39,573 bases of DNA, taken from the IMG/VR virus record IMGVR_UViG_3300047462_000497, positions 1 to 39,573 of that record. One strand, given 5' to 3'. This DNA comes from a virus. Shown here piece by piece: positions 3,633-35,611 of the stretch (positions within the stretch are counted from its first letter, which is position 1; each line of letters opens with the position of its first letter). Under the pieces are notes generated by a model, which saw nothing but the letters and a program-made list of their open reading frames with translations, was not told where the DNA came from and did not search any database. The translations under genes and the position numbers were made by a program.

Positions 3633-3663
3633 CGCGTGGTTCTCCTGGCGCGACGAAAGGGAA

Positions 3664-3687
3664 GCGACGGCCCCGAAGGACCGCCGC
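3664..3687 (-). terminator. Intercistronic hairpin with UUCG tetraloop between sheath and tube
   Basis: On the minus strand a 10-bp stem (two G-U pairs) closes a C(UUCG)G tetraloop, a very stable RNA hairpin. It is followed by TTCCCTTTCG, a poor U-tract, so full termination is doubtful. It may act as a partial terminator or as a 3' stabiliser that separates sheath from tube expression. Confidence 0.5.
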
Positions 3688-3713
3688 TATGTGGGCGGAT
3701 GCGCGCGCCGCGG

Positions 3714-5660
3714 TTAGGCGGCGGTGAGCAGCGAGGTCGGCGTCTGGACCTGGACGGTCGATCCGACCTGGACGATGTTGAGCACGTAGGAGATGCCCGC
3801 GAGCGTCTGGACCTCGACGGTCGCGATCAGGAAGCCCTGCGTGACCGTCGTGAAGTTGTTGTTGGTGAAGTCGACGGCCACGCTGAAGGCGCTGATGTAG
3901 TCAGCATCAAGCAACGTGTTGAGGTAGGCGTTGATCGCATCGCGATATTCGCGCCGCGTCGGATCGGTGTCGACCTGACCTTGCGCGAAGAGCTGCGGCG
4001 GGACCGATTGCGACTTGCCGACGTAGGGACCGCCGATTTGCTCGAGGACGATCGAGATGACGTTGAGCATCCGGGTGTCGGCGATCGGCGTGCCGTCGAG
4101 CGCGCAGCCGCCTTTGCCGGTCATCAGCTGGAAGCCGGTCAGTCCCGGCGCCTGATTGGTCAGGAAGCAGATGTTGTTCTGCGTCCGTTGGATGATTTCG
4201 GCGTCGTTGAGCGGCTGCGCCGTGGAGATCGTACGCTCGGTGTTGAGCATGTTGCTCTTGCCGGCGACGGGCTTATTGAGCGGGCAGTCCCAGGGATTGA
4301 GCGACGCGATGACGCCGGCGACGGGTCCTTCGGGGCTGACCCAGACGGTCTGGCCCTGATACGGATCGTACACGGACGAGTAATCCATGCACCCGACGAG
4401 ATAGCGCGACGGCAGGTTGTTGCCTTGGATGTTGGAGATCGCCGTCAGCGTCGTGGAATTCCGCGGCACGAGGTTGAGCACGCCGATGCAGCGGTTCGCT
4501 CGGCCGAAGGTGGCCATCGACGGGCCGAGGGTTGGATCGTTGAGGCCGGCGATATAGAACGTGCCGCCCGGAACGATGTTCTCGAACACGTAGATGCCGG
4601 TGCGGCCGGTCGTACCGTCGACGCCGAGCAGAATTGCGCTCGTGACGCCGGAGTAGCCGTTGGTGCCGCCGGATGCTTGCGTGACGACGCCCAGGCCTGG
4701 CGGAACCGTCGAGCTGCCGGCGGACGCCGTGACCCACGCCGATCCGCTCGTCGCGCTGTTGATCGCGGCGACGACGTTTGCTTGGAACGCGGCGGCGTTG
4801 TAGGCGCCGCCGAGCGTCGCGTAACCCGGAATGTTGACGAAGGTCTGCGCCTGGCCCTTAGGCGCGTAGATCGTGACCTGGTAGACGGGGTTGAGGCTCG
4901 TCGTGCCGGACACGAGATCGCAGCGCGCCTTGATATTGTTGCCGTACGAACCGTAGTTGACGGCCGTCAGCACGAGGAACACGCCGTAGCCGCCGCCGGT
5001 CAGCGTGGTCGGCGACGTCGGCGTGCATGTCAACGAGCCGAGCGTGGCGCCCGTGATCGAGATGCTGTTGCCACCGGTGCCGACGACGGCCGCTTTGATC
5101 GGCACGTTCGAACCCGAGGCGGTCGTGTTCGCGATGAAGGCGTTGGCGCCGGTGACCGCGGCCGAGGAATTGATTGCGGCGGCCAGGGCCGTCGCGCACG
5201 CAGAAGTCGACTCGCTGGCCGTGATCGTGATCGGCACGGAGACGGGTGAGCCGCTGGCGGGCGTCAGGGTCACCGTCAGCGTTCCCGAGACCGACGCGGT
5301 TCCGCCGAAGAGGAACCCGCCCGAAGCTGCCGTGCCGGCGTCCGGCATCGAGAGCGTGGCGGTCGTCTGCGTGCCATCGCCGGCGCGGCAGAAGACGAAG
5401 TTTTGCCCTTCGGGCGCGCTGCCGTTGGCGGCGGCCATCAGCATCGAGTGCGTGTCGGTGTCGTCGTCGCCGATCTGCTGCGCCGCGCTCTGGGCCGTCG
5501 CGTAGATGGGCGTTTCGAAGGCGCCCCACGACGACGTGCCGCGCACGCAGATGAGCGAGGTGTTCGGACCGGTCGGCGTGACCGGCGCCGCGGGAATGAC
5601 GACTTCGTAGACGCCGGGACGCGCGAAGGTGCCCGGATTGAGCGAAGATACGGTAGCCAC
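3714..5660 (-). CDS. Contractile tail sheath protein
   Basis: A 648-residue sheath subunit. The N-terminus has the sheath signature: a 'PGVYEVVIPAA' start, then 'NTSLICVRGTSSWGAFETPI', matching the G-x-GxASWGPVN pattern of the family. Residues roughly 105-230 form a Gly/Ser/Thr-rich beta domain, as in Mu-type sheath proteins. The C-terminal third has helical segments with the DYISAF...TTVTQGFL pattern of the conserved domain that binds neighbouring subunits and the tube. The start is GTG with GAGGA 7 nt upstream. Its presence makes the phage a myovirus. It is longer than P2 FI (about 396 residues), consistent with the inserted surface domain. Confidence 0.9.
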   Translation of the reverse strand: MATVSSLNPGTFARPGVYEVVIPAAPVTPTGPNTSLICVRGTSSWGAFETPIYATAQSAAQQIGDDDTDTHSMLMAAANGSAPEGQNFVFCRAGDGTQTTATLSMPDAGTAASGGFLFGGTASVSGTLTVTLTPASGSPVSVPITITASESTSACATALAAAINSSAAVTGANAFIANTTASGSNVPIKAAVVGTGGNSISITGATLGSLTCTPTSPTTLTGGGYGVFLVLTAVNYGSYGNNIKARCDLVSGTTSLNPVYQVTIYAPKGQAQTFVNIPGYATLGGAYNAAAFQANVVAAINSATSGSAWVTASAGSSTVPPGLGVVTQASGGTNGYSGVTSAILLGVDGTTGRTGIYVFENIVPGGTFYIAGLNDPTLGPSMATFGRANRCIGVLNLVPRNSTTLTAISNIQGNNLPSRYLVGCMDYSSVYDPYQGQTVWVSPEGPVAGVIASLNPWDCPLNKPVAGKSNMLNTERTISTAQPLNDAEIIQRTQNNICFLTNQAPGLTGFQLMTGKGGCALDGTPIADTRMLNVISIVLEQIGGPYVGKSQSVPPQLFAQGQVDTDPTRREYRDAINAYLNTLLDADYISAFSVAVDFTNNNFTTVTQGFLIATVEVQTLAGISYVLNIVQVGSTVQVQTPTSLLTAA

Positions 5661-6049: not shown

Positions 6050-8053
6050 TTATGACCAGGTAATCGAGGCGCTCGGGCCGCCCCCTGCCGTAAGATTGAC
6101 GTTGACGATCGCGTACTCGAACGATCGCGCATAGAGGTAAGGACTCGGCAGTCCGTCGAGCCCGTTGGGATGCGTCGGCGGACCGGTCGGCGGCCCGAGC
6201 CGTTTGAACATCTCGGCGTACCACGTCGAGTCATTCATGTATTGCGTCGGACTCGTGGGAAGATTGCCGTACTGATCGGTGACCAGCGTTAGCTCGCCGC
6301 CGACGTCGCCGTAGCCCCAGCCGTAGGCGAAATAGGAGTACTTGTTCGCGCTGACCAGATAGCATCCGAGGCCGAGATCGATATTTGCGCGCGCGTCGGC
6401 AAGCGCCGTGCCGTAGGGCGACGGTACGTTGTTCTGGACGTTCGCGAACCCGGGCCAGGTGCGAAGAATCGTGATGCGGCCGGCCGCGCTCATCGCGTAG
6501 ATCGCGTCGATGGTCGCCTTGATTTGGTCCGGTTCGTCTTGACGTCCGATGATCGACTCGGAAAACGAGCCGTCGAGGGTGCCGTCGAAATACGTCGACC
6601 CTTCGCTGGGCAGCGGACCTGGATAGGTGTTTCCGAGCAGCAGCTTGCCGCCTGGGATCAAGACCGTTATTTTCGAACGCAGCTGCGAGATCAAGTCGTA
6701 GGAGTCGGCGTTGTACTTTCCGAGCGAGTCGATGAAGACGCCGTCGAACTGCGGATACTGCGTGAGCATCCACGCGATCGCGCTCGACCACCACGCGCGA
6801 AACGCGGGGTCGTGTCGATTGTCGCCCTTGCCGCCGATCCACTGCGGTTGCGCGCCCGGGTAGGTCCAATAGCGATACGAGTCGGTGCGCTGCCCGTGAA
6901 AACCGACGTAAAAGAGCAGCTTGCCGGTCGGATTGGCAGCTTTCCACGCCGTCGCGACGGCGTTGACCTGATCCTCGAAATACCCGGTGCCGCCGCCTTT
7001 GATGAGGGCGACGAGCGTTGGCCAATTTGATGCGATGCCGCCGAGCTCGGAGGTCGTGAAGAAGGCGCTCGTTGTCTCGCGACCGATCAGCGTTGCGGCC
7101 GGGACGGTGACCCAATTGTTCCACGGCGGGAAGTTTGCTTGCGGATCCGCCGGCGGTGGCGGCGGTCCGTTGGGCGTCGGATTGAACGGGCCGCCGGCGT
7201 AGATGTCGATCTCGGCGTCGCTGTTGATCGTGATCTGGTTGTCGATCGCGCCGATGGTCGCAGCGCCCAAGTACTCAAGGACCGAGTACTCGACGTCGAA
7301 GGCGAGGTGCGCGGTGAAGCGCGATGCTCGCTGCTGCGCCGAATCTTTGAGTTTGTCGTCGCTCGCGCCCGTCGCGTACGACAGACGCATCGGCGTGTCG
7401 TCGGAAAGCGGCACGAAGACGTTCGCCGCGGTGCCGACGCGCGAACTCACAGCCTCGTGCATCGTGAAACGCACGTCGGGATTGTTGCTGAAACACGAGA
7501 CGAGCAGCGTCTGCGCGCGACGCCCGACTTCCCGCGCGAGAAGCACCGCCGCGGTCGAGACGTTGCATTGGACTTGGTCGACGCCGGCGATCGTAACCGT
7601 GTCCGACGTAATCGAGGCGCTTACGCCGGTCAAACCGAGCGCGTTGACGGCGTTGGCGATGCCGGCACAGACGCTTGCGACGTTGTCCCCAACCGAGGTC
7701 GTGTACGTTGCGTCGTTGTACGGCTGCTCGATCAGCACGTGGAACGTCAGACCCGGGATGACGTTTCCCGCGAAGGTCAAGACGTTGTTGATCGCCCCGA
7801 CGACGACGTCGATGTCCGGCGCCCTGACGGTGATGACGGTGTCGTCCGGCAGATAGCGCGTGACATCGCGCGGCCCCGTGTACTCGCGCACGGCGACCAC
7901 GGTCTTGTTTAGGCCGAGTATCTCGGAGAGCTGAGGCTCGGGCGGCTCGCCCAAGATCACCTGATTGGAGACGCTGAAGCCCGCATCGTTGAGCGAGTTG
8001 CTGACGAGTTGGCCAAGCGTGGTCATCGCGTCGAGAAGGCGCGATTTGCCCAT
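6050..8053 (-). CDS. Neck/tail structural protein fused to a glycoside-hydrolase-like domain
   Basis: A 667-residue two-part protein. Residues 1 to about 290 look like a virion connector or tail-terminator type protein (an N-terminal 'TLGQLVSNSLNDAGF' helix and beta-rich repeats). A Pro-rich linker follows (about 292-310, with five prolines in a row). Residues about 315-640 read as a TIM-barrel glycosidase of the GHL15/putative-glycoside-hydrolase kind: 'LLFYVGFHGQ', 'FDGVFIDSL', 'LLLGNTYPG', 'YFDGTLDGSF'. The acidic residues of 'FDGVFIDSL' would line a barrel active site. It sits between the neck genes and the sheath, so the enzyme would be displayed on the virion and could cut capsule or cell-wall polysaccharide. 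SD is GAGGG at 8 nt. Substrate and exact family are unknown. Confidence 0.7.
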   Translation of the reverse strand: MGKSRLLDAMTTLGQLVSNSLNDAGFSVSNQVILGEPPEPQLSEILGLNKTVVAVREYTGPRDVTRYLPDDTVITVRAPDIDVVVGAINNVLTFAGNVIPGLTFHVLIEQPYNDATYTTSVGDNVASVCAGIANAVNALGLTGVSASITSDTVTIAGVDQVQCNVSTAAVLLAREVGRRAQTLLVSCFSNNPDVRFTMHEAVSSRVGTAANVFVPLSDDTPMRLSYATGASDDKLKDSAQQRASRFTAHLAFDVEYSVLEYLGAATIGAIDNQITINSDAEIDIYAGGPFNPTPNGPPPPPADPQANFPPWNNWVTVPAATLIGRETTSAFFTTSELGGIASNWPTLVALIKGGGTGYFEDQVNAVATAWKAANPTGKLLFYVGFHGQRTDSYRYWTYPGAQPQWIGGKGDNRHDPAFRAWWSSAIAWMLTQYPQFDGVFIDSLGKYNADSYDLISQLRSKITVLIPGGKLLLGNTYPGPLPSEGSTYFDGTLDGSFSESIIGRQDEPDQIKATIDAIYAMSAAGRITILRTWPGFANVQNNVPSPYGTALADARANIDLGLGCYLVSANKYSYFAYGWGYGDVGGELTLVTDQYGNLPTSPTQYMNDSTWYAEMFKRLGPPTGPPTHPNGLDGLPSPYLYARSFEYAIVNVNLTAGGGPSASITWS

Positions 8054-8068
8054 GCTCGATGCCCTCGC

Positions 8069-8893
8069 TTAGGTCGGCGTACTCTTGAGGAACTCGACGA
8101 CGGCGACAGTGCCGGCGACGCCGATCAGTTGACTCGAATAGAGGCCGCGGATCTGAAAGCGCGTGCCGTCGGCGAGCGTGAGAATCATGAGCCGCTGAAC
8201 TTCGAAGGAACCGAGCGGCGGAATGTACGCGAGCTGCTCTTCACGGCTGAAGTCGGCGACGACGTCGGGGTCGTTCTCGTCGTGCACGCGCCGGATGGGC
8301 TGCAGGCCGAAAGGGATGACCGCTGGGGTCGCGCCCGGCGCCGTTGCCAGCGCGTAGCTTCCCGACGTCAGGGTTAGCGGCAGTTCGATCGCTTCTTGGT
8401 TCCCGGCCCACTGCGGGTCGAAGACCGATCCGAACGCCGGCGCCTGCGCGAGCGTTCCAGCGTTGGAGTTCGGGGCCGTCAGCACGCCGAGTTGCTCGCA
8501 CCGCACGAGCATTGTCTCGCGCGTGGGCCGCTTTTGGGCGACGGCGTAGATGCCGTTGATGGCCAACGTCGCCGTCCCGGCCAGGATTGCGGCGCCGTTG
8601 AGCTGCAGGTTCGGCGACTGGGTCTGCTCGACCAGAATGTCTCCGAGCGCGAGGTTCCCGGCGTTGACCATCGCTTCGAAGGCCAGCAGATCAAACGTTT
8701 GATTTTCAACCAGGGTCTTTGAGGTTTCTCGATCGATGCGGGCCGTCAGCGCCGCAATCGGCGTTGTATCGAGCACGCTGACGTTCGCGCTGCTACCGAG
8801 ACGATAGAGATTGTATGACTCGCCCCAGCGTGCCCCGATGCTGCCTCGGATAGCTTGCACCTTGCCGTCAAGGGCACCGAGGCGGTTGGCCAT
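8069..8893 (-). CDS. Hypothetical virion protein (neck region)
   Basis: A 274-residue protein in the head-to-tail joining part of the block. The N-terminus 'GARWGESYNLYRL' resembles starts of uncharacterised phage minor structural proteins. The C-terminal region (about 200-274) is beta-rich with 'SREEQLAYIPPLGSFEVQRLMIL' and ends in 'VEFLKSTPT'. Its stop is followed by 15 nt to the next gene, and its ATG starts two bases after the stop codon of the preceding 110-residue gene. A neck or tail-terminus role follows only from its place. Confidence 0.65.
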   Translation of the reverse strand: MANRLGALDGKVQAIRGSIGARWGESYNLYRLGSSANVSVLDTTPIAALTARIDRETSKTLVENQTFDLLAFEAMVNAGNLALGDILVEQTQSPNLQLNGAAILAGTATLAINGIYAVAQKRPTRETMLVRCEQLGVLTAPNSNAGTLAQAPAFGSVFDPQWAGNQEAIELPLTLTSGSYALATAPGATPAVIPFGLQPIRRVHDENDPDVVADFSREEQLAYIPPLGSFEVQRLMILTLADGTRFQIRGLYSSQLIGVAGTVAVVEFLKSTPT

Positions 8894-15694: not shown

Positions 15695-17299
15695 CTAACG
15701 TGGCTTTCGGCCGCGTTCTTGGCCGGCGCCGACCGGCGCGCTCGTGAAGGACATCCCGCTGCGACGCGCGCCGATTTCGGCGAGCCAAAAGGCAAGCACG
15801 GTGTCGTCGTGGGCCTCGACGCCGAGGCCGTGCAGCTCGTTGATGAAGACGTCGACGAACGCTCGCGTGCGCTCGTCGTCACCGTAAGGCAGTTCGATCA
15901 GGTTGGCTTCGAAGAGCGCCTGCAGCGAGGGAATACCCTCGTAGATGTCGACCCGCACGCCTTTGCCCGTGACGTGCTTGCGGATCGGCAGATCGCCTTT
16001 GCTGGCGGCCAGAAGGCTCGATGCGAACCAGCGCTGCGCCTGATTAGCTTCGACGGTCGCAACGCGCAACGTCGGATAGCGGCGCAGCGTGCTTTCGACC
16101 ATCGTGATCTGCGGCGTCATGCCCAGGCCCCGTTTGCGCAGGCCGAAACACAGCCGCCGGCGGCCGTTGTCGGCACGCCGCCAGACCATCACGACCGTGT
16201 AGTCGCCGTCGGAGGCCTGCGCGTCCCGTTCGTTCTCGATGATCGCGAGGTCGATGCCAGCAATGACGCGCTCGGTCTCGCCGTCGCCGGCGCCGTAGTG
16301 ATCTTCGAAGACTGCATCGCGGTTCTTCGCCCGCTCGAGCATCGCCATCGGGAAGAGCGAGGTCTCGTCGTTGGTCGCGACGTTGCGGTAGTCGCGATTG
16401 AAGGTCATCGAGCCAACCACGGCCTTCTTGGCCATGAGCGCGTCCCAGGACCAGCGCGCCGGCCAGAGCGTGATCTTGCGCTCTTCGTCGACGATCGCAT
16501 CGAAGCGCCAAAAATGCCACTGCGAGCCCGGCAGCTTCGATTTCTTCTCGATGCGCATCAGCACGTCGTCGTTGTGCTTCGCGGTGCCGACGATCAGCGC
16601 GCGGCCGTCGGGCTCGAGCGTGCCGAGCAAGTCGCCGTCGACCCACTCCTGCAGCTTGTCGCGCTGGCGCTGCGTCATCGAATTTTCGAGATCGGCAAGG
16701 TCGTCGCCCATCGCCCAGTCGCTCCGGCCGCCCTGCACGGGCTTGGCCGAACCGACCGCGCGCCAGGTCGGCGATTGTGACGTCGACGTACGCCGGACGA
16801 TCAGCTCGCTCTGCGTCCACTTCTCCGGCTGATCCGGCTTGAAGGGACCGAAGTCTTCGATGAGCAGCTCGTTCGACTCGAGTTCGCGCCGGTTGGCGCG
16901 CATAAAGCGCTCGGCAAGCTCCGAATTGACCGACGCGTTGATGATGCGAAGATTGGGATCCGTAACGCACGTGAGCCAGAGGGTCGAGATCTTGGTGAAG
17001 ATCGTCGACTTGGCGTGCGATTTCGGCGCCTGGATGCCGACGTAGCGCAGATCACCGCGCACCATGCGCAGGAATATCTTGTACCATTCGAGGTGGACGG
17101 GCGCCGGTTTGATCGGGTCGCCGTCGTCGGTTTTGAGATAGAGCCAGGCGAAATAGGCGGGGTGCGCGCGCGCCGCGACGATGCGCTCAGCCTTGGTCGG
17201 GAGCTTCCCCGAACAAAGCTTCGAGAGCGCGCTCCGCAACAACAGCGAGTCGGTCGTCCACGGGTCCGAGACTGACATCGTGCTTGATCGCTGCGCCAT
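15695..17299 (-). CDS. Terminase large subunit (packaging ATPase/nuclease)
   Basis: A 534-residue DNA-packaging motor. The Walker A-like loop 'APKSHAKST' is at residues 91-99; it keeps the final Lys-Ser but has His-Ala in place of the usual Gly-x-Gly region. Walker B 'WAMGDDLAD' places the Asp pair at 199-200. The nuclease domain carries 'AGIDLAI' (Asp 350), 'VEANQ' (Glu 417) and 'AHDDTVLAFW' (Asp 498-499), the expected metal-binding acidic set. It overlaps the end of the small terminase-like gene by over 90 nt if started at 17299; an in-frame ATG at 17278 is an alternative. It ends 12 nt before the portal start. Confidence 0.92.
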   Translation of the reverse strand: MAQRSSTMSVSDPWTTDSLLLRSALSKLCSGKLPTKAERIVAARAHPAYFAWLYLKTDDGDPIKPAPVHLEWYKIFLRMVRGDLRYVGIQAPKSHAKSTIFTKISTLWLTCVTDPNLRIINASVNSELAERFMRANRRELESNELLIEDFGPFKPDQPEKWTQSELIVRRTSTSQSPTWRAVGSAKPVQGGRSDWAMGDDLADLENSMTQRQRDKLQEWVDGDLLGTLEPDGRALIVGTAKHNDDVLMRIEKKSKLPGSQWHFWRFDAIVDEERKITLWPARWSWDALMAKKAVVGSMTFNRDYRNVATNDETSLFPMAMLERAKNRDAVFEDHYGAGDGETERVIAGIDLAIIENERDAQASDGDYTVVMVWRRADNGRRRLCFGLRKRGLGMTPQITMVESTLRRYPTLRVATVEANQAQRWFASSLLAASKGDLPIRKHVTGKGVRVDIYEGIPSLQALFEANLIELPYGDDERTRAFVDVFINELHGLGVEAHDDTVLAFWLAEIGARRSGMSFTSAPVGAGQERGRKPR

Positions 17300-17789
17300 C
17301 TTTTCCCGTAAGCTCCACGCGCGCGTTCACGCGGTCGAGACCGTGCACGCGGCTCTGTGCCCGCAGTGCTGCGATCGCGAGCTTCACGGCATCAGCACCG
17401 CCGACGAGACCGCTCCCAAGCGCCTCGAGCGCGCCCGGCATCGCTGCCTCAACGAGAGCGGCGACGTGCTTGACCTGCGACTCCATGACCGACAGGCTCG
17501 CGTCGATCTGACGCTGCGCCGACTCGATGCGGAAACGCCGGTTGACGTCTTCGCGAAAGGCGGCGCGTGCATCGAGCCAACCGTCGTCGGCCGCTTGTCG
17601 CTCGACCGTGCGACGATCGACGCCCAGCCGCTTCGCGATTGCTTCGTAGGACTCGGCGCCGGTGACATACTCTTCGCGAACCGCGATCCAATCGACCGGC
17701 TCGCCCTTGCGCGAGCGCTTACGGTGCGCTCCGCGGAGCCGGCTGATCGCCTCCGCTTCGTCTGCGTTAGGGGTAGACGAATCCGACAT
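17187..17789 (-). CDS. Terminase small subunit-like HTH protein
   Basis: A 200-residue protein just upstream of the large terminase and overlapping it. Residues about 40-75 ('EEYVTGAESYEAIAKRLGVDRRTVERQAADDGW') form a helix-turn-helix of the kind used by small terminases to bind the packaging site, followed by a long helical region that would assemble the ring. ATG 17789 is preferred since AAAGG lies 5 nt upstream; a longer in-frame start at 17834 lacks an SD. It overlaps the preceding gene by 23 nt. Small terminases diverge widely, so the call rests on the HTH and position. Confidence 0.75.
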   Translation of the reverse strand: MSDSSTPNADEAEAISRLRGAHRKRSRKGEPVDWIAVREEYVTGAESYEAIAKRLGVDRRTVERQAADDGWLDARAAFREDVNRRFRIESAQRQIDASLSVMESQVKHVAALVEAAMPGALEALGSGLVGGADAVKLAIAALRAQSRVHGLDRVNARVELTGKDGAAIKHDVSLGPVDDRLAVVAERALEALFGEAPDQG

Positions 17790-18150
17790 AGCGGCCTTTG
17801 CTTGCCACGACCCGCGCGGCTTTGTGCTGCTCATGCGTGCGCGGGTCGAAGACGTCCACGTGGTCGACGAACGGCTTTTTCGACGCGAGCAGATAGCCGC
17901 CGTCGATCAGGGGCGCGTTGGCCAACTTGGCCTGCGCGACCGATTTCTTCAGTTCGGCTTTATCGACTGTCGGCGTGTCTGCGATGCGCATGCGCGGGAA
18001 ACGCGGCTTGCCGCGGCGCTTCCAGCGAATCGGTTGCGGCGGGCCGACGACGTTCGGATCGCGGCGAGAGAGAAGATCTGGCATCATCGTGTCGGGCGTG
18101 TGGATCAGCGACGCAGCTGCGACGGCTGCCGAGATCAAGCGGGGCGTCAT
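17767..18150 (-). CDS. Hypothetical basic protein upstream of terminase genes
   Basis: A 127-residue protein. A Met-Thr start leads into a short Ala-rich helix; residues 28-60 are rich in Arg/Pro/Lys, and the C-terminal half ('VDHVDVFDPRTHEQHKAARVVASKGRYVGFVYP') looks like a small folded domain. AAAGGA lies about 14 nt upstream, which is far, so translation may instead begin at Met 22. It sits between the glycosyltransferase and the packaging genes. Not recognised. Confidence 0.55.
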   Translation of the reverse strand: MTPRLISAAVAAASLIHTPDTMMPDLLSRRDPNVVGPPQPIRWKRRGKPRFPRMRIADTPTVDKAELKKSVAQAKLANAPLIDGGYLLASKKPFVDHVDVFDPRTHEQHKAARVVASKGRYVGFVYP

Positions 18151-18168: not shown

Positions 18169-19257
18169 TCAGACGGCGGCGCACGCGGCGCTCTGCGCGG
18201 GCTGCCGGATCGCGCGATCCCATTGCTCCACCGTCACGCTCGTCAGGTGGCGATGCAACACGGCATCGCGATTCTCACGGGCGTACATCGCCCGGGTGCC
18301 GACGTCGTCGATCATGCGAAGGAGCGCCGTTTCCCACTCGCGCTCGTCGCCGGCGAGCCACACCGACTTCGGCGACTCGCGCTCGTATCGGACGAACGGA
18401 CCGAACCGACTCGCGACGACCGGAATGCCCAGCGCGCCGTATTCCATCAGGCGCAGCGCCGACTTGCAGCGGTTGAACGTCAACGGCGCGAGCGGCGCGA
18501 TCCCGACGTCGAGCTCGACGCGATCGACGTGCTGGTACCAGCGCACGCTCGGCAAGAGCGGGCCGATGTCGGACGCGCGCAGCGGCCATTTGCTCCCCGT
18601 GCCGCCCCAGTACTCGGAGCGCTTCCAAAGCTCGCGGGCGATGAGTGGGCGCAGGTCTCCGCCGACCATGACGAATTTTACATGCTCGCGCGCGCGCAGG
18701 ACGCGTTCGATCGAGCGAGCGACGACGGCGAAATCGCCCCCGTGATTGGGAGCGCCCGCGTATCCGAGGCGGATCTCGCCTTCGCGCCGCGGCTCGCCGT
18801 TGCAAGGGGGCTCGAATTGTAAGGCGATGTGGTCTTCGATACCGTTCTCGGCGACCGCGATCGTCGGTGCCTTGTGCCGGTACTCGTGCGCGAGATCGAC
18901 CGTGGAGACGATCAGCCCGTCGCAGGCGGCTGAGATGCGGTCGAACGCGGCGACCGCCGGCCGGCCGCTGCCGAGGTTCTTCGCCTCGGGAGCCCACGAC
19001 GGGGGCGCGTGCATGAGGTCGTCGATCTCGTGCAGCACCCGTTGCCCGCGCGCCTTGGCCGCCTTGATGACGGGCAGCACACCGAGGTTCGTCTGTCGCT
19101 GCAGCACGACCACGTCGGCGGCGGCGAAAGCCGAATCCGTCGAATTCTCGACGAACGCGATCTCGTGGCCGCAGCAGTCGCGCAGCGCCAGCGCAGGGGC
19201 GACGATCCGGTGATAGCCCGAGCCTTCGTAGTTTGCGGCGCAGAAGGCGATCCGCAT
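18169..19257 (-). CDS. Glycosyltransferase (GT4/GT-B-like)
   Basis: A 362-residue GT-B-type glycosyltransferase that would move a sugar from a nucleotide donor to an unknown acceptor. The N-terminal Rossmann half begins 'RIAFCAANYEGSGYHRI'; the C-terminal half shows 'IRLGYAGAPNHGGDF', 'KFVMVGGDL', 'VELDVGIAPLAPLTFNRCKS' and 'LRLMEYGALGIPVVAS', the donor-binding E-x-G-A-x-G-x-P region of GT4-type enzymes. ATG 19257 shares bases with the upstream TGA (TGATG), so the two are coupled. In a late virion operon it could modify tail proteins or the lysogen's surface glycans. Confidence 0.82.
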   Translation of the reverse strand: MRIAFCAANYEGSGYHRIVAPALALRDCCGHEIAFVENSTDSAFAAADVVVLQRQTNLGVLPVIKAAKARGQRVLHEIDDLMHAPPSWAPEAKNLGSGRPAVAAFDRISAACDGLIVSTVDLAHEYRHKAPTIAVAENGIEDHIALQFEPPCNGEPRREGEIRLGYAGAPNHGGDFAVVARSIERVLRAREHVKFVMVGGDLRPLIARELWKRSEYWGGTGSKWPLRASDIGPLLPSVRWYQHVDRVELDVGIAPLAPLTFNRCKSALRLMEYGALGIPVVASRFGPFVRYERESPKSVWLAGDEREWETALLRMIDDVGTRAMYARENRDAVLHRHLTSVTVEQWDRAIRQPAQSAACAAV

Positions 19258-19676
19258 CAGTGACCGATGCACGCCTCGAAGATTGGTTTCCAATCGTAGC
19301 GCGCGCTGACGATCAGCAGTGCGCTAGGCGCGAACGCCTGGTTGTCGAGAGCGCTCTCGTAGAGCGTTCCAAGGATCTCGACGAGCGTGCCGCCCCGGAC
19401 GTTCGGGTCGCACTGGCCGTTCGGCCACACGACGAAGAACATGTAGGGATCGGGAGAGCCGCCGAGGATCGGTCCGCCGGTTCGCAGCATGCGCGCGAAG
19501 TATGCAGGGTTGAGCGCGCCGCGAGCGACGGCTGCTGCACGAATCGGCTCGTTTAATGCACGATCGGCCCCGTTTGTTGCATAGATCGGCGCATTGTGTG
19601 CGGCGATGGGCGCCGCCGTCGCAAGCAGCGACAGCACGATCAGCACGCGGCGAACCAGCCGGCGAAGTGCACGCAT
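19257..19676 (-). CDS. Small exported protein with Sec signal peptide
   Basis: A 139-residue protein with a classical signal peptide: an Arg-rich n-region, a 'VLIVLSLLATAAPIAA' core, and a likely cleavage near residue 26. The mature part has 'FFVVWPNGQCDPNVRGG' and two cysteines (about residues 89 and 137) that could form a disulfide in the periplasm. SD AGGAGG precedes the ATG. Its stop overlaps the glycosyltransferase start. Unknown function; export from the cell is the firm sequence-based prediction. Confidence 0.65.
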   Translation of the reverse strand: MRALRRLVRRVLIVLSLLATAAPIAAHNAPIYATNGADRALNEPIRAAAVARGALNPAYFARMLRTGGPILGGSPDPYMFFVVWPNGQCDPNVRGGTLVEILGTLYESALDNQAFAPSALLIVSARYDWKPIFEACIGH

Positions 19677-19685
19677 CGGGGCCTC

Positions 19686-20009
19686 CTAGATCAGCGACGG
19701 GCCGACGGAGATCGGAAAGAGGTCCGTCTTGAGCGGGGCAGCCGAACCGAGCGTGACGATCAGCTGCGCGGTGGCGACGCCGGCGGTCGGGAAATCGGTC
19801 GCCGAGGCGGTCGTGTAGGTGACGAACGTGCCGTCTTCGGAGACCGCGCAGGTGAACTGCACTGCACTCGATGCGCCTGGGTGCTTGACGGCGAGGATGA
19901 CGGTCGCGCCGGCCAGCGAGCCGAGACCTCCGAGGCCGTACGCATCGGGGAAGAACTCGAGTTCTTTGCCGACTTCGCCGACCCGGACGTTCGTTGGCCC
20001 GTAGGTCAT
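19686..20009 (-). CDS. Small beta-rich structural protein (Ig-like)
   Basis: A 107-residue protein with a single beta-sandwich pattern: 'NVRVGEVGKELEF', 'GATVILAVKHPG', 'VQFTCAVSEDGTFVTYTT', 'GVATAQLIVTLG', 'DLFPISVGPSL'. This resembles the small N-terminal attachment domains of phage receptor-binding and baseplate accessory proteins. The ATG overlaps the TGA of the upstream repeat protein (ATGA). It is likely a companion of the repeat protein in a tail fibre or tip assembly. Confidence 0.6.
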   Translation of the reverse strand: MTYGPTNVRVGEVGKELEFFPDAYGLGGLGSLAGATVILAVKHPGASSAVQFTCAVSEDGTFVTYTTASATDFPTAGVATAQLIVTLGSAAPLKTDLFPISVGPSLI

Positions 20010-21448
20010 AGCGGCTGCGCTCCTCGCGAGAGGCGAACGTGGAAGGTGACGGTCATCGGGAGCGGCACGTCAAAGCGCGCGCTGCGGCTGATCGGCGGCA
20101 CCCGGATCACGACCGGCGTGATCGACGCGCGAACCGGCGGCGGCGGGTTGAGCAGGTCGATCGTCGCCAGGATGTCGATCAGCGCGCGCGCAGCGGCGAG
20201 TCCAACGGCGATGCCCTGGTCGCTCGTGCGCGTCGGGTTGAGCACGAGTCGGAAGAAGCGGCTGCCGCCGATGAGCGCATCGCTTGTCGCGCCGAGCTCG
20301 AAGAACTGACGGCCCGTGATGATGCGCGGGCCGATGTAGTCGGCGGTAACCAGCGGTTCGAACACGCCGCGAACCGACGCCAGAGCGCCGCGAGAAAGCG
20401 CGTCCGCCGTCGTCAGGGCGTCAGATGCCGTGCGGCCGAGCGTGAAGGCCTTGGCGAGCGCATCCGCCGTCCCTAGCGCCTCAGAGAGCGAGCGCGGGCC
20501 CGTTAGCGCCGAGGTCAACCCGTCGGCGGTTGCGAGCGTTTCCGCGGCGCCGCGCGCCAGGGCGAGCGCCTTGGCCAGCGTGTCGACGGTCGAAAGGATC
20601 TCGCTCCGCGATCGCCCGAACGCGGCGTTCGACGCGAGGCCGTCGTTGGTCACAAGCGCGTCGGCGAGCGCACGCGGCCGCGCAGCGACGGCGGCCAGGG
20701 AGTCCGCAGTCGTCAGGATGTCGACGACGAGCACCGCGTGCACGACGCCGCCGGAGACGATCGCGTCGGCGGTCGTCAGGGATTCGGCCGGCGAGCGCAC
20801 CGGGTAGACCCAGCGCGCGACGCTATCGGCGGTCGCAAGCGCGTCGACGAGCGATCGCGGGAGTGCAACCGTGTGCACGAGGTTGTCGCCCGGCCATAGC
20901 GCATCGAGCAGCGCCCGCACGGTGTGCACGCTTGGCACGGAGAGCGAATCGCTCACCGAAAGCGTGTCGCTAAGCGTTCGGCTCGGGGCGACGTTGGCGA
21001 GGAGCGCGTCGAGGGTCGCGAGCGTCTCGTAGGGGTAGCGATTGAGCGGTTGCGACGAATGCAGACTGTCCGAGGTCGCGAGCGATTCGGCAAGCGCGAG
21101 CAGCCGCGCGACGGTCCGCGCGAGCGAATCCGTGGTCGCGCGCGATTCGCTCGGCGAACGCGAAAACGATTGAGCGCTGCGCGAAAGCGCATCGACGGTC
21201 GAGAGCGATTCCGAGAGGGACCGCGGCAGCGTGACGTGCCGCGTCTTCGAGTCGCTCGTGCTCAGCGATTCCGTAAAGGTTCGCAGCGAGTTGAGGTTGT
21301 CCGCGACTGCGTCCGACGTCGTGACGTTGTCCGAAAGCGTGCGCGGCCGCGAGACACTCGAGACCAGCGAATCGCTCGTCCTGAGCGAGTCGGTAAGGTT
21401 GCTGCTGGACGAGCTGCTGGAGGTGTGAAGAAGCAGGAGCAGCGACAC
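20006..21448 (-). CDS. Repeat-rich tail fibre-like protein (about twenty 20-residue repeats)
   Basis: A 480-residue protein. After a Ser-rich N-terminus, residues about 18-400 are made of roughly twenty units of 20-21 residues. Each unit runs L-x-T-x-D-[AS]-[LV] then about 7 variable positions then R-x-L-x-[DE]-x, as in 'LATADSLARTV...RSLSEA'. The last 60 residues form a different beta-rich end ('VIRVPPISRSARFDVPLP'). Start is GTG with AGGAGGT at 5 nt. Such regular acidic/hydroxyl repeats suggest an elongated solenoid, suitable for a fibre shaft. It lies in the accessory region with small receptor-binding-like proteins. Fibre role is inferred; the repeat is seen directly. Confidence 0.7.
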   Translation of the reverse strand: MSLLLLLHTSSSSSSSNLTDSLRTSDSLVSSVSRPRTLSDNVTTSDAVADNLNSLRTFTESLSTSDSKTRHVTLPRSLSESLSTVDALSRSAQSFSRSPSESRATTDSLARTVARLLALAESLATSDSLHSSQPLNRYPYETLATLDALLANVAPSRTLSDTLSVSDSLSVPSVHTVRALLDALWPGDNLVHTVALPRSLVDALATADSVARWVYPVRSPAESLTTADAIVSGGVVHAVLVVDILTTADSLAAVAARPRALADALVTNDGLASNAAFGRSRSEILSTVDTLAKALALARGAAETLATADGLTSALTGPRSLSEALGTADALAKAFTLGRTASDALTTADALSRGALASVRGVFEPLVTADYIGPRIITGRQFFELGATSDALIGGSRFFRLVLNPTRTSDQGIAVGLAAARALIDILATIDLLNPPPPVRASITPVVIRVPPISRSARFDVPLPMTVTFHVRLSRGAQPL

Positions 21449-21465
21449 GGGCTACCTCCTGCGCG

Positions 21466-22245
21466 CTATCCTCCGACCTCGAGGAATGGCCACCGCACCC
21501 ACGCGATCGGAGTGCAGGGCAAAAGCATGAACGGGCACTGGGTCGACGGATAGATCGCGAGCGACACGGACCAGGCCGTCGACGTCGCGCCACCGCTGCA
21601 TTGGACGCTTTCGCCGCTGGTCCAGACGGTACCGATCGTCCCGTAGCTGACGTACTTGCCGGTGGCCGAAAGCGGCGCGCTCGTGCTGAACGTGTTTGTG
21701 AGCGAAACCGTCTCGCCGGCGGAGTTTGTCGACATGACACACACGGCGAGGCCGCCGGGCGATGATGCAACCTGGATCTGTACGGACGGCGTGCCGCTGG
21801 TGCCCGTCGCCTCAGCGTATTTCGCGAGCGAGAAATTGGCCCCGGATACTTCGATGACGACTTCATAGCGGCACGAGCTGGCAACGTTGAACGTGCACTT
21901 GAATGCGCCCGTCGGTGAATTTAGCGCCTGATAGTCGTAGACGTAGGTTGCCAGGACATTGGAAACCGTGCCGGTCGCGTTCGCTTCGTTCGTGAGCGAG
22001 ACGCCGTTGCTGTCGGTGACGCTCGTCGGGTTTTGCGGCGACGACGTCGCGGTCGACAAGACCGGCGCGACGATGATGTCGCTATTGACCGGCGACGCTG
22101 CAAGCGTGACGGTTTGATTGCTCGCACCGGCTCCCGAAGCGTTGGACTGCGTGACCTTGGGGATCGCGAGCGCCGGCAAGGACAGCGCGGCCGCGAAGAC
22201 CGCAGCGAGCGTCAGCCTAGAGGTAATATGCGGTGATTTGGACAC
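21466..22245 (-). CDS. Exported beta-rich protein with signal peptide
   Basis: A 259-residue protein starting at GTG 22245, where GGGAG lies 8 nt upstream. Residues 1-27 are a signal peptide ('RLTLAAVFAAALSLPALA' core, cleavage after ALA). The mature part is Ser/Thr/Ala-rich and beta-rich with about six cysteines in its second half, resembling secreted surface proteins of the 'ASNQTVTLAAS...SDIIVAPV' kind found in soil bacteria. It overlaps the preceding secreted gene by 29 nt. Function unknown; a host-derived adhesin or surface protein is possible. Confidence 0.65.
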   Translation of the reverse strand: MSKSPHITSRLTLAAVFAAALSLPALAIPKVTQSNASGAGASNQTVTLAASPVNSDIIVAPVLSTATSSPQNPTSVTDSNGVSLTNEANATGTVSNVLATYVYDYQALNSPTGAFKCTFNVASSCRYEVVIEVSGANFSLAKYAEATGTSGTPSVQIQVASSPGGLAVCVMSTNSAGETVSLTNTFSTSAPLSATGKYVSYGTIGTVWTSGESVQCSGGATSTAWSVSLAIYPSTQCPFMLLPCTPIAWVRWPFLEVGG

Positions 22246-22636
22246 CCGATGCGCTCCCGGTCGAACCGTGTTCGGTCGTCGTCGACGCAATCGACCAGCC
22301 GATGGAAGAGAATGCGCCGATACCCGACGGGATGTAGAAGACGCACGGCGTTGCGCTCGACGGACACTCGACTTCCTGGGTCACTTCGGTCGTGCCGAGC
22401 GTTACGTTCGTAGCCGTCGTGTTGAAGAGCTGGATATAGGCAGCCGTCGACGATTGATAGTTGTTGACGACGACCGCATAAAGCGTTCCCGCGCTCGACT
22501 TGATGTTTTGGACCGTGCTGCCGAGGTTGCGATAGAAATACGGCGTGAGACCGGTCGGCGTGCCGACGGCTTGGGCGTTGGCTGCCGCCGGAAACGCCAG
22601 CGCGATCGCAAGCGCGAGGAGCGCGCGCAGTTTCAT
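22217..22636 (-). CDS. Exported phage-type beta protein with signal peptide
   Basis: A 139-residue protein from ATG 22636, next to the stop of the upstream gene at 22639. The signal peptide is textbook: Lys-Arg n-region, 'ALLALAIALAFPAAANA' core, cleavage ANA|QA. The mature part follows a pattern common in virion beta proteins: 'GTLYAVVVNNYQSSTAAYIQLFN', 'TLGTTEV', 'FYIPSGIGAFSSIGWSIAST', 'GVQITAYY'. That a virion-type domain carries a Sec signal is unusual. Location after export and purpose are unknown. Confidence 0.65.
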   Translation of the reverse strand: MKLRALLALAIALAFPAAANAQAVGTPTGLTPYFYRNLGSTVQNIKSSAGTLYAVVVNNYQSSTAAYIQLFNTTATNVTLGTTEVTQEVECPSSATPCVFYIPSGIGAFSSIGWSIASTTTEHGSTGSASGVQITAYYL

Positions 22637-22638
22637 GC

Positions 22639-23055
22639 TTACGTTCCCTGCCAATAGGCGACGATGATGTTGCAGCCCGACGCCGGCGCCGCGCTGATCT
22701 TGTACGAAAGGCCGTTTACCAGCGGGCAGTGCCACGGAACGAATTGCCCGGGCGTCAGTTGGCCCTGAAAGACGATGTCGTTGGCGGATCCGGACGGCGA
22801 GGATCCTTCATCGTAGATCGTGAGCGTCGGCGAAAGGCCGCTGTCGGGCGCGCCGGCATACAGGATGCAGTCGATTGCACCTTGAGCCGCGAAGAGATTG
22901 GTTGGGCTCGTCGCGCTCGACGACGCCGTGATAAGCAGACGATTGGGCGGCAACGGGCAAACGAGCTGCTGATGCTCGGTTTGCGAGTCGCGCGTCGATT
23001 GATAGGTCGAAACGTTCGTGCCGGAGCCGGCGGTGATCGGAACGGAGTTCGTCAA
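22639..23055 (-). CDS. Beta-rich accessory structural protein (paralogue of 24149-24586)
   Basis: A 138-residue protein started at TTG 23055 with AAAGGGG at 6 nt. Its C-terminal half shares with the protein at 24149-24586 the order YDE...P-G-A-D...V-x-G-x-L...PL-NG...PA-G...I-x-YW. No signal peptide is visible. The pattern also recalls the exported protein just downstream, suggesting a small family of beta folds in this region, perhaps alternative tail-tip or receptor-binding modules. Confidence 0.6.
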   Translation of the reverse strand: MTNSVPITAGSGTNVSTYQSTRDSQTEHQQLVCPLPPNRLLITASSSATSPTNLFAAQGAIDCILYAGAPDSGLSPTLTIYDEGSSPSGSANDIVFQGQLTPGQFVPWHCPLVNGLSYKISAAPASGCNIIVAYWQGT

Positions 23056-23090: not shown

Positions 23091-23663
23091 TTAGATCTGA
23101 ACCGTCCACGCCAACGCGAGGGAGTCGCCGCTCGATGCGACGGTCGCCGTCGCCGACAGCAGCGCTTCGAAGGTCAGCTTCGAGCCGCTCGAGCCGTAAT
23201 ACTGACCCGCCTTCGCAATGACGACGGCGCCGGAGCCCGTGTACGTGAAGGTGATCGACATGATGTAGGACGCTGACGCACCGAGCGAACCCGGCGCGCT
23301 GTACGAGCCGTAGCTCGCAGCTGCGCGGCCGAGGCCGTTGGACGTCAACTCGCTCGCGAGCACAACGTCGGCATTGGCGACGGCGCCCGTGTCGGTCGTG
23401 ATGCCGATGTAATTAGAGGACGCGTTACCGGTCGCGTTCCCCATGATGCCGGCTTGCCACGATGCGCCTTGCGAGACGCGCGAGTTGCGCGACTTGCCAA
23501 GGTAATTCCAGCGTCCGGTCTTGGAGTCGAACAGCGCGGCGCGTACGAGGTTGTGACCGCGCGGAGCGTCCTCGCTCAGGGCGAGGCGCAGCATGTCGGC
23601 TTCGCCTTGGCTCTTGGCATAGCGAAGCGCGCCGGCGACGTCGCCGTCGAAGGTGTGGAGCAT
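23091..23663 (-). CDS. Phage structural protein of the 'NYIGITTDT...ASEL...GLGRA' family
   Basis: A 190-residue protein that matches a widely distributed phage tail-associated family: 'GIMGNATGNASSNYIGITTDTGAVANADVVLASELTSNGLGRA' (here spread over residues 74-115) and a C-terminal 'SYIMSITFTYTGSGAVVIAKAG' block. Members are found among tail fibre and tail-tip genes. Residues 1-60 are a helical head with 'DGDVAGALRYAKSQGEADML'. SD GAGAGGT lies about 10 nt before ATG. Exact role in the virion is not established. Confidence 0.7.
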   Translation of the reverse strand: MLHTFDGDVAGALRYAKSQGEADMLRLALSEDAPRGHNLVRAALFDSKTGRWNYLGKSRNSRVSQGASWQAGIMGNATGNASSNYIGITTDTGAVANADVVLASELTSNGLGRAAASYGSYSAPGSLGASASYIMSITFTYTGSGAVVIAKAGQYYGSSGSKLTFEALLSATATVASSGDSLALAWTVQI

Positions 23664-23708: not shown

Positions 23709-24149
23709 TTAGGCCGTCGCGGCCGAGTCGGAGGTCGTCGTGTCGCTCGACGCCTCGGCGTTGACGACGTTGGTCGCCTCAACGCCGTGGTGATCTTGTG
23801 CGTCGACGTGCGCCGCGATCACGCGAACGATCGCATACATGAGGTGCGCCGCCTTGCGGTTTTCCGCCGGCAGCTGCTCGAAGGGGACGATCGTGGGATC
23901 GGTCTTCGCGGCCTCGTCGAGGGTCGGGCCGTATTCCCAACCGTCGGCTTCCTTGCGCGCGCAGAGCATCCGGTATTCCTTCGCGGGCCCGGCATGCTCG
24001 TTGTCGAGAATGAATTGCACGTGCGCGATGTACGCAGCGCGTTCCGCATCAGGCAGCGCGTCGAACGATGCGCTGGCGCGCGCGGCCACCTGCAACGAGC
24101 GTTCGGCTTCGGCGGCGTAGGCGACGCGCGCGATCTGTTCGACGGTCAT
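23709..24149 (-). CDS. RyR-domain protein
   Basis: A 146-residue protein with a ryanodine-receptor (RyR) type domain: an 'IARVAYAAEAERSLQ' helix near the start, then 'ADGWEYGPTLDEAAKTDP', 'TIVPFEQLPAENRKAAHLMYAIV' near residues 75-112. Bacterial and phage RyR-domain proteins are short like this one; their ligand is unknown, although the fold is taken as a small binding module. The ATG overlaps the upstream TAA (TAATG). The Ser/Thr/Ala-rich C-terminal 30 residues look disordered. An in-frame start further upstream would run through the neighbouring gene and is rejected. Confidence 0.8.
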   Translation of the reverse strand: MTVEQIARVAYAAEAERSLQVAARASASFDALPDAERAAYIAHVQFILDNEHAGPAKEYRMLCARKEADGWEYGPTLDEAAKTDPTIVPFEQLPAENRKAAHLMYAIVRVIAAHVDAQDHHGVEATNVVNAEASSDTTTSDSAATA

Positions 24150-24586
24150 TATGCGCTCCAGTACGTTGCGATCACGGCAGCGCCGGCCGCGGGTTGCGAG
24201 GCGACCTTGATGGTGAACCCGTTGCTGAGCGGAATCGATAGCTCGATCGGCGCAGCGTAAGCATTGAGGGTGCCGACCCAAACCAGGTCGGCATCGGCGC
24301 CGGTAGGCGTCGCCTCGTCGTAAATCGAGACGATCGGCGACGTCGCCGAGCCCGTCCACCACAGCTTGTAGAGCGACACCGGCGAAGCGACCGCGGCGAC
24401 GAGGCCGCTTGTCCACGAGGCGTTGGTGACGCGATAGACGTCGGAGGCGATCTGCGCGAAGACGGGATAGTCCGTCACGATGCGCTGCGCGGACGAACCG
24501 CTGCCGCTGGTGCGGATCCGTCTGACGAGTGCGGCCGATTGCTGCGTGTTAGGTGGCGCGGCTGGCGCGGGCGTTGCGGTCGGCAT
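24149..24586 (-). CDS. Beta-rich accessory structural protein (paralogue of 22639-23055)
   Basis: A 145-residue protein with ATG 24586 and AGGAG 5 nt upstream. The N-terminal 25 residues are Pro/Ala/Thr-rich and probably flexible. Residues about 60-145 share the ordered blocks 'SIYDE', 'PTGADAD', 'VGTL', 'PLSNGF', 'PAAGAAVIATYW' with the protein at 22639-23055. It is coupled to the RyR gene. The pair looks like an old tandem duplication now separated by two genes. Confidence 0.6.
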   Translation of the reverse strand: MPTATPAPAAPPNTQQSAALVRRIRTSGSGSSAQRIVTDYPVFAQIASDVYRVTNASWTSGLVAAVASPVSLYKLWWTGSATSPIVSIYDEATPTGADADLVWVGTLNAYAAPIELSIPLSNGFTIKVASQPAAGAAVIATYWSA

Positions 24587-27164: not shown

Positions 27165-28154
27165 TTAGTGACGAACTATCTCAAGGAGCGCCGCGTCTTC
27201 GAAGACGTTGGCGCGGCGAACGTATCCGCCGAGCACCTTGATCGACTTATGGCCCGACACGCGCGAAATGTCGCGGTCAGCAACCTTCGCCCGTGCGGCA
27301 CTCGTCACAAACCCAGCGCGCAAACTGTGGCCGGAGAAATCGCCGGCGATGCCGGCCGAACGGGCGACGCGCTTCACAAGTCGAGCGACCAGTCGCGGGC
27401 TGATACGTTCGATGGCAACGCTTCCGCCGTTGATGCGGCGGAAGAGCGGACCAGCGTCGATGTCGGCCGCTGTCAGCCATGCCTGTGTCGCGCGCACCGG
27501 GCAGATAGCCGCCTTCGGAAGCATCGGGATCGCGATGGCGCGGCCTTCGCCGAGCTGGTCGGTCTTCGATCGCCGCAGCGTTACGACGATGCCCTTGCGC
27601 GAGATCTCCAAATCGGCAACGTCGAGCGCCGCGAGTTCGCTGCGCCGGAACGCACCGGCAAACCCGAGCAGCAGAATTGCGCGGTTGCGGACGCCTTCGA
27701 GGTCGTTGCCGATCGTGACGAGCGCGTCGCGCAGCAGATCGATAGTCAGGGCGGTCTTCTTGACCGCGGCAGAGCCTTTCTCGTTGGCGATACCGCGGAT
27801 GACGGCGAGGACGGCCGGGTGTTTGGTCGGATCCTCAAGTTCGCGGTCGCGGTGCGCGCCGCCGATCGCCGTCAGTCGGCGACGCAGCGTCGAGACCTTG
27901 CACGTCTCGGCTCGCTCGGTCAGATACAGCGCGACGCTCTGCGGCGCAGCGGGCAAAGACTCGAGCCCAGCGCCGGAGCACCAGAGCCCGAAGTCCCGCA
28001 GATCGGAGGCGTACGCGTTGCGCGTCGCTTCCGCTCGTGCCGACCGTGCGTAATCGCGCGCTTTTGCGGCGACCGCCTCCAGGTCGGACTCTCTTCTGAG
28101 GGCCGGCAGACCCGAGACGTTATCGGACACCGGAGGCGTCCGATATGCGTCCAT
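27165..28154 (-). CDS. Tyrosine recombinase (integrase 1)
   Basis: A 329-residue site-specific recombinase. An N-terminal SAM-like core-binding domain (about 40-120) precedes the catalytic domain, in which all active residues are visible: R171 in 'FRRSEL', K197 in 'RRSKTDQ', H276 and R279 in 'GHSLRAG', H302 in 'SGHKS', and the nucleophile Y311 in 'GGYVRRA'. ATG 28154 was chosen because GAGAGGT lies 8 nt upstream; an upstream in-frame start is less likely. There is no arm-binding domain, so it is of the compact Xer/IntI type. Its start codon lies within a set of 10-nt repeats that could be autoregulatory or recombination sites. Confidence 0.88.
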   Translation of the reverse strand: MDAYRTPPVSDNVSGLPALRRESDLEAVAAKARDYARSARAEATRNAYASDLRDFGLWCSGAGLESLPAAPQSVALYLTERAETCKVSTLRRRLTAIGGAHRDRELEDPTKHPAVLAVIRGIANEKGSAAVKKTALTIDLLRDALVTIGNDLEGVRNRAILLLGFAGAFRRSELAALDVADLEISRKGIVVTLRRSKTDQLGEGRAIAIPMLPKAAICPVRATQAWLTAADIDAGPLFRRINGGSVAIERISPRLVARLVKRVARSAGIAGDFSGHSLRAGFVTSAARAKVADRDISRVSGHKSIKVLGGYVRRANVFEDAALLEIVRH

Positions 28155-28199
28155 TATGGGACACCTCTCAGCGCTTCCCCGCGGCACAATATCGGACAC
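28121..28199. repeat. Phased 10-nt repeats around the start of integrase 1
   Basis: The 10-mer tatcggacac occurs at 28121-28130 and 28190-28199, with a one-mismatch copy tatgggacac at 28155-28164; start-to-start spacings are 34 and 35 nt. An inverted copy of its first eight bases (gtccgata) is at 28138-28145. The middle copy lies in the integrase ribosome-binding region. They look like operator or recombinase-binding sites. Confidence 0.6.
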
Positions 28200-34274: not shown

Positions 34275-34481
34275 GTGGCCTGTCACGACGGAACGTGGAT
34301 CCGCCGTGCGCCGCAAACCCGCATGGAATCTAGCAGTGGGGCGTCGCCAAGTGGTAAGGCAGGGGACTTTGAATCCTGGCGGCCTTACATTCGCCCTCGT
34401 CGCGGAGCCCTGCCGGACGGGCGTTTTCGTGTTTGTTTTGCCCGCGGTTCGGAGTCGTCGGCGGGCACGTGGCCTGTCACG
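34275..34481 (+). repeat. 13-nt direct repeats flanking the tRNA-like sequence
   Basis: The 13-mer gtggcctgtcacg occurs at 34275-34287 and 34469-34481, on either side of the tRNA-like core and inside the integrase 3' end for the second copy. The pair could be arm-type binding sites of the integrase. Confidence 0.5.
34337..34379 (+). other. tRNA-Gln(TTG)-like 5' fragment, candidate attachment core
   Basis: From tggggcg (34337-34343, acceptor-like) through a D-arm gcc...ggc (34346-34360) and an anticodon arm with loop ctttgaa (34367-34373, anticodon TTG), this reads as the first two thirds of tRNA-Gln. The anticodon stem has one mismatch and no proper T-arm or CCA end follows; the sequence runs on into the integrase stop region. 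It probably derives from a host tRNA gene and marks an integration core beside integrase 2. A functional tRNA is unlikely. Confidence 0.5.
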
Positions 34482-35611
34482 TGAGAGGCTACGAGGGCCG
34501 CAGCGCGATCAACACTTTCGCGGTGCCGAGCAGGCGCAACATGGGTGTAGACGTCGAGCGTCAGATCGGTCGTCGAGTGCCCCGCGATGTCCGCGGCGAC
34601 GCGCGCCGACGCCCCGCTTTCGCCGTACAGGCTGACGCCCGAGTGCCTGAGCACGTACAGCGTCGCCGGCGGCAGGTTCGCCTTTTCGACGATCAAGGCG
34701 AGCGCGGCGTTGGCAACCTTTTCGCTGAGCCACTTGCCGGCGGGCGTCACGAAGACGAACGGTGAGCCGTGTTTCTCCGCTGCCATAGCCGCCTGGTGGC
34801 GCTCGAGCGCCTCGATCGTGCCGGCATCGAGCGGCACGCGTCGGGCTGATTTGGCCTTCGCCGGCGCGAGCTTGCGCGGGCGCTCCTCGAGCGAGTGACG
34901 CACGTCGACGACGGCCGCCTCGAGGTTGACGTCGGACCATTGTAGAGCGAAGAGCTCCCCGGGCCGCATCGCAGCGAAAACGCCGAGCCGCACAAGAGCT
35001 TCGTAGCGATGGCCGCGCGCGGCCGCGAACAGCGTCGCGAGTTCCTCGGCGTCGTACGCGCCCCGTCGCGCTGGCCGATGTTGCGGCCGATCAACGAACG
35101 CGCACGGATTGCGCGCGATGAGACCTTGCCCGATCGCGACGTTGAACGCGCGCCGCAGGCTCTTGTGCAGTTTCTGGATGTTGTCCGCCGACACGCTGCG
35201 CAGCGCGAGGTTCTGGTAGAGCTTCGCGATCGTGCGTCCGTCAAGTTCGTCGAGCGGCATTTTGCCGATGTTCGGCAGCGCGTAGCGTCGGATGCGATCG
35301 GCATAGAAGCGCGCCGTCGCGGACCGGCGCGACGTCGCGACGGAGGCCAGCCACGTCTCGAGATATTCCTCGACGGTTCGCATCTGCGATCGGCCGACGA
35401 CGCCGCCGTTGCGCGCGCGGTGTTGCTCGAACTTCAGCCGCGCCTCGTCTTTGGTCTTGCCGCAGAACGAGCGGCGGATGCGCTTGCCGTTCTCGCCGTA
35501 GCCGAGGCTCACCGCGAAGATCCAATAGTTCGAAGCCACGCCGCTCGGCAAGACGCGCCGACGGTAGAACCAGGACCCTTCCCCGGCGCTGCGGCGACTA
35601 CGTGACGGCAT
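34385..35611 (-). CDS. Tyrosine recombinase (integrase 2), lambda-type
   Basis: A 408-residue phage integrase. The N-terminal 70 residues ('GSWFYRRRVL', 'FAVSLGYGENGKRIRRSFCGKTKDEARLKFEQ') form an arm-binding AP2/LambdaInt-like domain, followed by a core-binding domain and the catalytic domain: R216 in 'MRPGEL', K254 in 'KSARRVPL', R322 in 'YVLRHSG', H345 in 'AGHSTTD', nucleophile Y355 in 'DVYTHV'. The usual His of H-x-x-R is Tyr319. Start ATG 35611 excludes a long upstream reading that is antisense to the Gp37/Gp68 remnant. It ends inside the tRNA-like region, the usual int-attP order. Confidence 0.88.
   Translation of the reverse strand: MPSRSRRSAGEGSWFYRRRVLPSGVASNYWIFAVSLGYGENGKRIRRSFCGKTKDEARLKFEQHRARNGGVVGRSQMRTVEEYLETWLASVATSRRSATARFYADRIRRYALPNIGKMPLDELDGRTIAKLYQNLALRSVSADNIQKLHKSLRRAFNVAIGQGLIARNPCAFVDRPQHRPARRGAYDAEELATLFAAARGHRYEALVRLGVFAAMRPGELFALQWSDVNLEAAVVDVRHSLEERPRKLAPAKAKSARRVPLDAGTIEALERHQAAMAAEKHGSPFVFVTPAGKWLSEKVANAALALIVEKANLPPATLYVLRHSGVSLYGESGASARVAADIAGHSTTDLTLDVYTHVAPARHRESVDRAAALVASHVTGHVPADDSEPRAKQTRKRPSGRAPRRGRM

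Follow-up and report, generated by a model that had tools for sequence, protein, structure and literature searches.

Three minus-strand genes with predicted N-terminal signal peptides, here called P1, P2 and P3, lie between an integrase gene and the terminase genes of the phage in IMG/VR record IMGVR_UViG_3300047462_000497. The window analysed is the whole of this record, 39,573 bases, and its ends cut into the tape measure gene and, by reading, an exonuclease-like gene, so the record is probably a genome fragment. In minus-strand reading order it contains an integrase (27165-28199), an accessory block (approximately 26.7 to 17.8 kb) that holds P1, P2 and P3, and then terminase, portal, protease, SU10-type capsid, sheath and tape measure genes. 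The block runs into the minus-strand packaging genes, TerL (15695-17299) and, identified from its position and by reading, TerS (17187-17834). The right part of the window has a second integrase and an Xre-type regulator, and the two tyrosine integrases (27165-28199 and 34385-36016, both minus strand) are thus found within one phage fragment. A gene between those for capsid and sheath (6050-8053, minus strand) encodes a glycosyl-hydrolase-like GHL15 domain (PF14885, E=9e-11).

The window reads as a temperate, contractile-tailed phage with an uncultivated bacterial group as host. Its TerL is 65-71% identical to those of the phages L002 and L003 and of prophages in the genomes G001 and G111. The phylum of G001 shows a huge expansion of the PF04185 phosphoesterase-fold family, which occurs in 100 of its 149 genomes, and this makes that phylum, which we take to resemble Eremiobacterota/Vulcanimicrobiota, the likely host.

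All three open reading frames are present on the minus strand. P1 (19257..19676) encodes 139 aa, with a signal peptide of about 26 aa and a mature part of 113 aa. P2 (21466..22245) encodes 259 aa, starts with GTG preceded by GGGAG, and has a signal peptide of 27 aa followed by a Ser/Thr-rich mature part of 232 aa. P3 (22217..22636) encodes 139 aa, a signal peptide of 21 aa and 118 mature residues. A perfect AGGAGG ribosome site precedes P1 and a weak one lies at P3; the P3 and P2 genes overlap by 29 nt, and the P1 stop overlaps the ATG of a glycosyltransferase-like gene (18169..19257, minus strand) in the sequence TGATG. These ribosome sites and overlaps indicate that P1, P2 and P3 are real, coupled genes. 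P1 and the glycosyltransferase-like gene are probably coupled in translation, judging from the TGATG overlap, and gene spacing suggests that the block is co-transcribed. A consensus scan of the block, uninformative for this host, found no promoter, and terminators at chance level only.

The other genes of the block inspected here, all on the minus strand, have no signal peptides. Between P1 and P2 lie a 107-aa gene (19686-20009) and a gene for a 480-aa Ser-rich repeat protein (20006-21448), which is built from degenerate repeat units some 25 residues long (…RSLSESLSTSDSL…), has no cysteine and weakly matches phrog_12240 (E=0.0014). Upstream of P3 are a mutually related pair (22639-23055 and 24149-24586), a gene at 23091-23663, and a small RyR-domain gene (23709-24083; PF02026, E=2e-6), whose domain is common to several phage families. 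Beyond these is a phosphoesterase-fold gene of the host-type family PF04185 (24595..25821). Host copies that we inspected carry either a signal peptide or a lipobox, together with the active-site motifs QENRS, NEGPS-PAH and DDWGGWYDH, their signal peptides being of the same style as those of P1, P2 and P3; the phage copy lacks a signal, and its motifs read QQGRN, NRSTLWPAF and VDSANWYDD. This phage relative is probably catalytically dead and not exported, and has been kept for another role.

Signal peptides and cysteine content

The N-termini of P1 (MRALRRLVRR-VLIVLSLLAT-AAPIAA^HNAP), P2 (MSKSPHITSRLT-LAAVFAAAL-SLPALA^IPKV) and P3 (MKLR-ALLALAIAL-AFPAAANA^QAV) each consist of a charged n-region, a hydrophobic core of 9-10 residues and an A-x-A type cleavage site. 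We evaluated them using a simple signal-peptide scorer calibrated on annotated genes of the phages lambda, Mu, P2 and HK97. P1, P2 and P3 score 3.34, 3.62 and 3.99. The scorer can tell proteins directed to the membrane from those that stay in the cytoplasm, but it does not distinguish a cleaved signal from an anchor that is left uncleaved. Of 85 coding sequences for packaging or virion proteins in the four calibration phages, none exceeds 2.3, while membrane-targeted controls score 4.1 (Lom), 4.3 (Rz), 3.1 (the Mu spanins) and 3.0 (a SAR endolysin), and spanins, SAR endolysin and LysA/B/C together range from 2.8 to 4.8. The next-best open reading frame in the window, scored from its first start codon, reaches 2.72. 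When each whole protein was shuffled 2000 times, its own score was reached by 20 shuffles for P1, 2 for P2 and 0 for P3. The three Sec signal peptides of the original prediction are thereby confirmed, although the arginine-rich n-region of P1 might also belong to a Tat signal or to an anchor that is not cleaved. Across 35 terminase-related loci, open reading frames having both a signal peptide and a ribosome site occur almost solely on the late strand.

The mature parts contain even numbers of cysteines (2 in P1, 6 in P2 and 2 in P3), at densities of 1.8-2.6 per 100 aa; in head and tail genes the value is mostly below 1. Such even counts would fit folding in an oxidising compartment; the neighbouring 22639-23055 protein, which lacks a signal peptide, still has 4 cysteines.

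The block in related phages

The genes had been described as part of a late virion operon. The block does run into the terminase genes, but it lies upstream of TerS and not among the capsid and tail genes, and at the same place in the close relatives L003, G001 and G111 it is missing. With no counterpart before TerS in these sister phages, it is accessory.

A further member of the clade, L002, encodes two proteins with signal peptides within its head operon, both on the late strand: one between TerL and portal (3199-3846) and one before the protease (6435-6860). The first resembles P1, P2 and P3 insofar as it is exported-type cargo in the late strand of the same phage clade. It differs in having counterparts in 34 of 149 host-phylum genomes, with identity of up to 50% over residues 1-213, signal included, and by its sequence is a host-type secreted protein; P1, P2 and P3 have no such homologues. 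The host-phylum matches to P3 that we inspected fall by chance on the signal peptide of a phosphate-binding-type protein or on unrelated or antisense frames, and those to P1 and P2 are likewise chance matches, short and weak, many with internal stops. The second L002 protein, like P1, P2 and P3, has no homologue that we could find; it is similar to P3 in size and layout, with no detectable sequence similarity. Exported late-strand cargo is thus found in two of five clade members, some of them seen in part, and is not a quirk of a single contig. With the calibrated signal peptides and the even cysteine counts, this recurrence makes the predicted export of P1, P2 and P3 by the infected cell or lysogen well supported. 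The G001 prophage contig carries a lipoprotein-type gene (MKRLLLVAALAISTLVACGGGG...; L072:3388-4407, plus strand) opposite to the late-gene strand.

Sequence and fold comparisons and alternative readings

Searches of PHROGs, Pfam and NCBIfam with whole and mature proteins gave no virion-family match for P1, P2 or P3. No close relatives were found in IMG/VR, no tblastn matches among phages and plasmids, no sequence match to solved structures and no homologue of any kind for P1 or P2; none of the three proteins gave a homologue with a known function. A degenerate beta-motif pattern occurred at chance positions only and was dropped as evidence. The P2 structure model was of too poor quality to interpret. 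Mature P3, modelled from its single sequence, is all-beta at low confidence (pLDDT 49), and its best BFVD fold matches, which are weak, are phage proteins of 119-125 aa (probability 1.00, TM ~0.5, E of at least 0.004); a PDB fold search with P3 gave nothing meaningful. The virion-like beta domain of the original prediction therefore stands on one low-confidence fold match of P3, while no sequence search returned a virion homologue. The matched small tailed-phage beta proteins (BFVD entries of 119-125 aa, among them A0A516MBL2; also U6C862 of Ralstonia phage RSK1) resemble mature P3 in length and approximate fold, but their 119-125 aa correspond to the mature part alone and leave little room for a signal peptide, and the comparison has E of at least 0.004 from a low-confidence model.

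These fold matches favour the possibility that P1, P2 and P3 themselves belong to the virion, as beta domains of decoration or fibre type that would be secreted, fold with disulphides outside the cytoplasm and join particles at or after lysis. Also in its favour, the distantly related phages L090, L093 and L105 carry signal-peptide proteins right behind their capsid genes, and the L093 protein at 7602-8879 has a phage-type C-terminus. Against it are the low confidence of the P3 model, the failure of all three proteins to match a virion family by sequence, and the absence of the block from sister phages, which indicates that it is dispensable for the particle. An incomplete literature search turned up no account of virion proteins of tailed phages with Sec signals, and we know of no assembly route via export in tailed phages. 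We regard this explanation as unlikely, though slightly less so than the other alternatives.

Somewhat less probable still is that P1, P2 and P3 are lysis or membrane-anchored proteins whose N-termini are uncleaved anchors or SAR sequences. The Mu lysis cassette (SAR endolysin and spanins) directly precedes the terminase genes and likewise places export signals just upstream of TerS; its products also register as signal peptides in our scorer, no lysis gene was identified within the window, and the n-region of P1 has five arginines. Unlike the Mu proteins, however, P1, P2 and P3 have no lipobox or match to a lysis family, and P3 is predicted to be beta and not coiled coil. In the G001 prophage, lysis-type genes (a weak SLT match, E=0.026, and, by reading, a short two-helix membrane protein) come after the tail genes, a position equivalent to one beyond the left end of the window. 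The missing lipobox and lysis matches and this gene order weaken the case for lysis.

That the N-termini owe their hydrophobicity to chance or to a misassigned start codon and that the proteins are cytoplasmic, as the GTG start of P2, the weak ribosome site of P3 and the 1% of shuffles that equal alanine-rich P1 might suggest, is very improbable given that one block has three such N-termini and the 85 control genes none, and that independent instances occur in L002.

Proposed exported accessory proteins and their possible role

The explanation we favour, at slightly better than even odds, is that P1, P2 and P3 are accessory ('moron') proteins that are exported and by which a temperate contractile-tailed phage changes the envelope or surface of its host; most likely they are host-surface cargo and do not belong to the virus particle. 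Besides the signal peptides, the cysteine counts, the accessory setting and the L002 proteins, the coupling of P1 to a glycosyltransferase-like gene and the similar signals of the host phosphoesterase homologues speak for this reading; the failure to find a homologue of known function and the four cysteines of the signal-less neighbour speak against it. The proteins would be made from the variable block between integrase and terminase, routed via the Sec pathway and cleaved, disulphide-bonded outside the cytoplasm, and retained in or on the envelope. There they would most likely alter the surface met by phages, for instance through attachment to a glycan or receptor that lowers the adsorption of related phages. 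We infer the cleavage, the disulphides, the location and the surface or superinfection function. A surface change or a block to superinfection is plausible by analogy, because exported prophage genes commonly act in this way: in known prophages superinfection exclusion is a common role of exported moron-type genes. Our literature search, incomplete in its coverage, returned nothing on exported prophage exclusion proteins.

One of the closest known parallels, and the one that they would resemble in function, is lambda Lom, an outer-membrane moron next to the tail genes that forms a beta barrel and is encoded downstream of J. Like P1, P2 and P3 it has a Sec signal peptide and is encoded on the late strand beside morphogenesis genes without being a packaging or assembly gene. 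In contrast to Lom, the three proteins P1, P2 and P3 have unrelated sequences and are encoded upstream of terminase, and P2 and P3 appear to be soluble proteins, Ser/Thr-rich or beta. Exported phage cargo is a kind already known, and P1, P2 and P3 would add to it.

A variant that we consider improbable would make P3, and perhaps P2, a secreted version of a receptor-binding or decoration domain of particle type, with the Sec signal letting the infected cell or lysogen coat its own receptors. In distantly related phages, signal-peptide proteins occur in a row shortly after the capsid genes (L093:7602-9900, L090:8201-8641 and L105:17142-20034), an arrangement that may be a wider pattern. The L093 signal-peptide protein has 10 cysteines, and the C-terminus of 7602-8879 matches phrog_12121, of function unknown (E = 4e-4); the signal-peptide proteins of L090, L093 and L002 have no homologues in annotated phages.

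Genes adjoining terminase and capsid genes are usually presumed to serve the particle, and a calibrated test here finds an export-type cluster at that position in phages of a little-studied phylum. If P3 or P2 does act as a secreted decoy, the L090, L093 and L105 cases would represent a wider, unreported habit of tailed phages, and should the beta domains turn out to be of particle type, such decoys would link receptor binding and superinfection exclusion.
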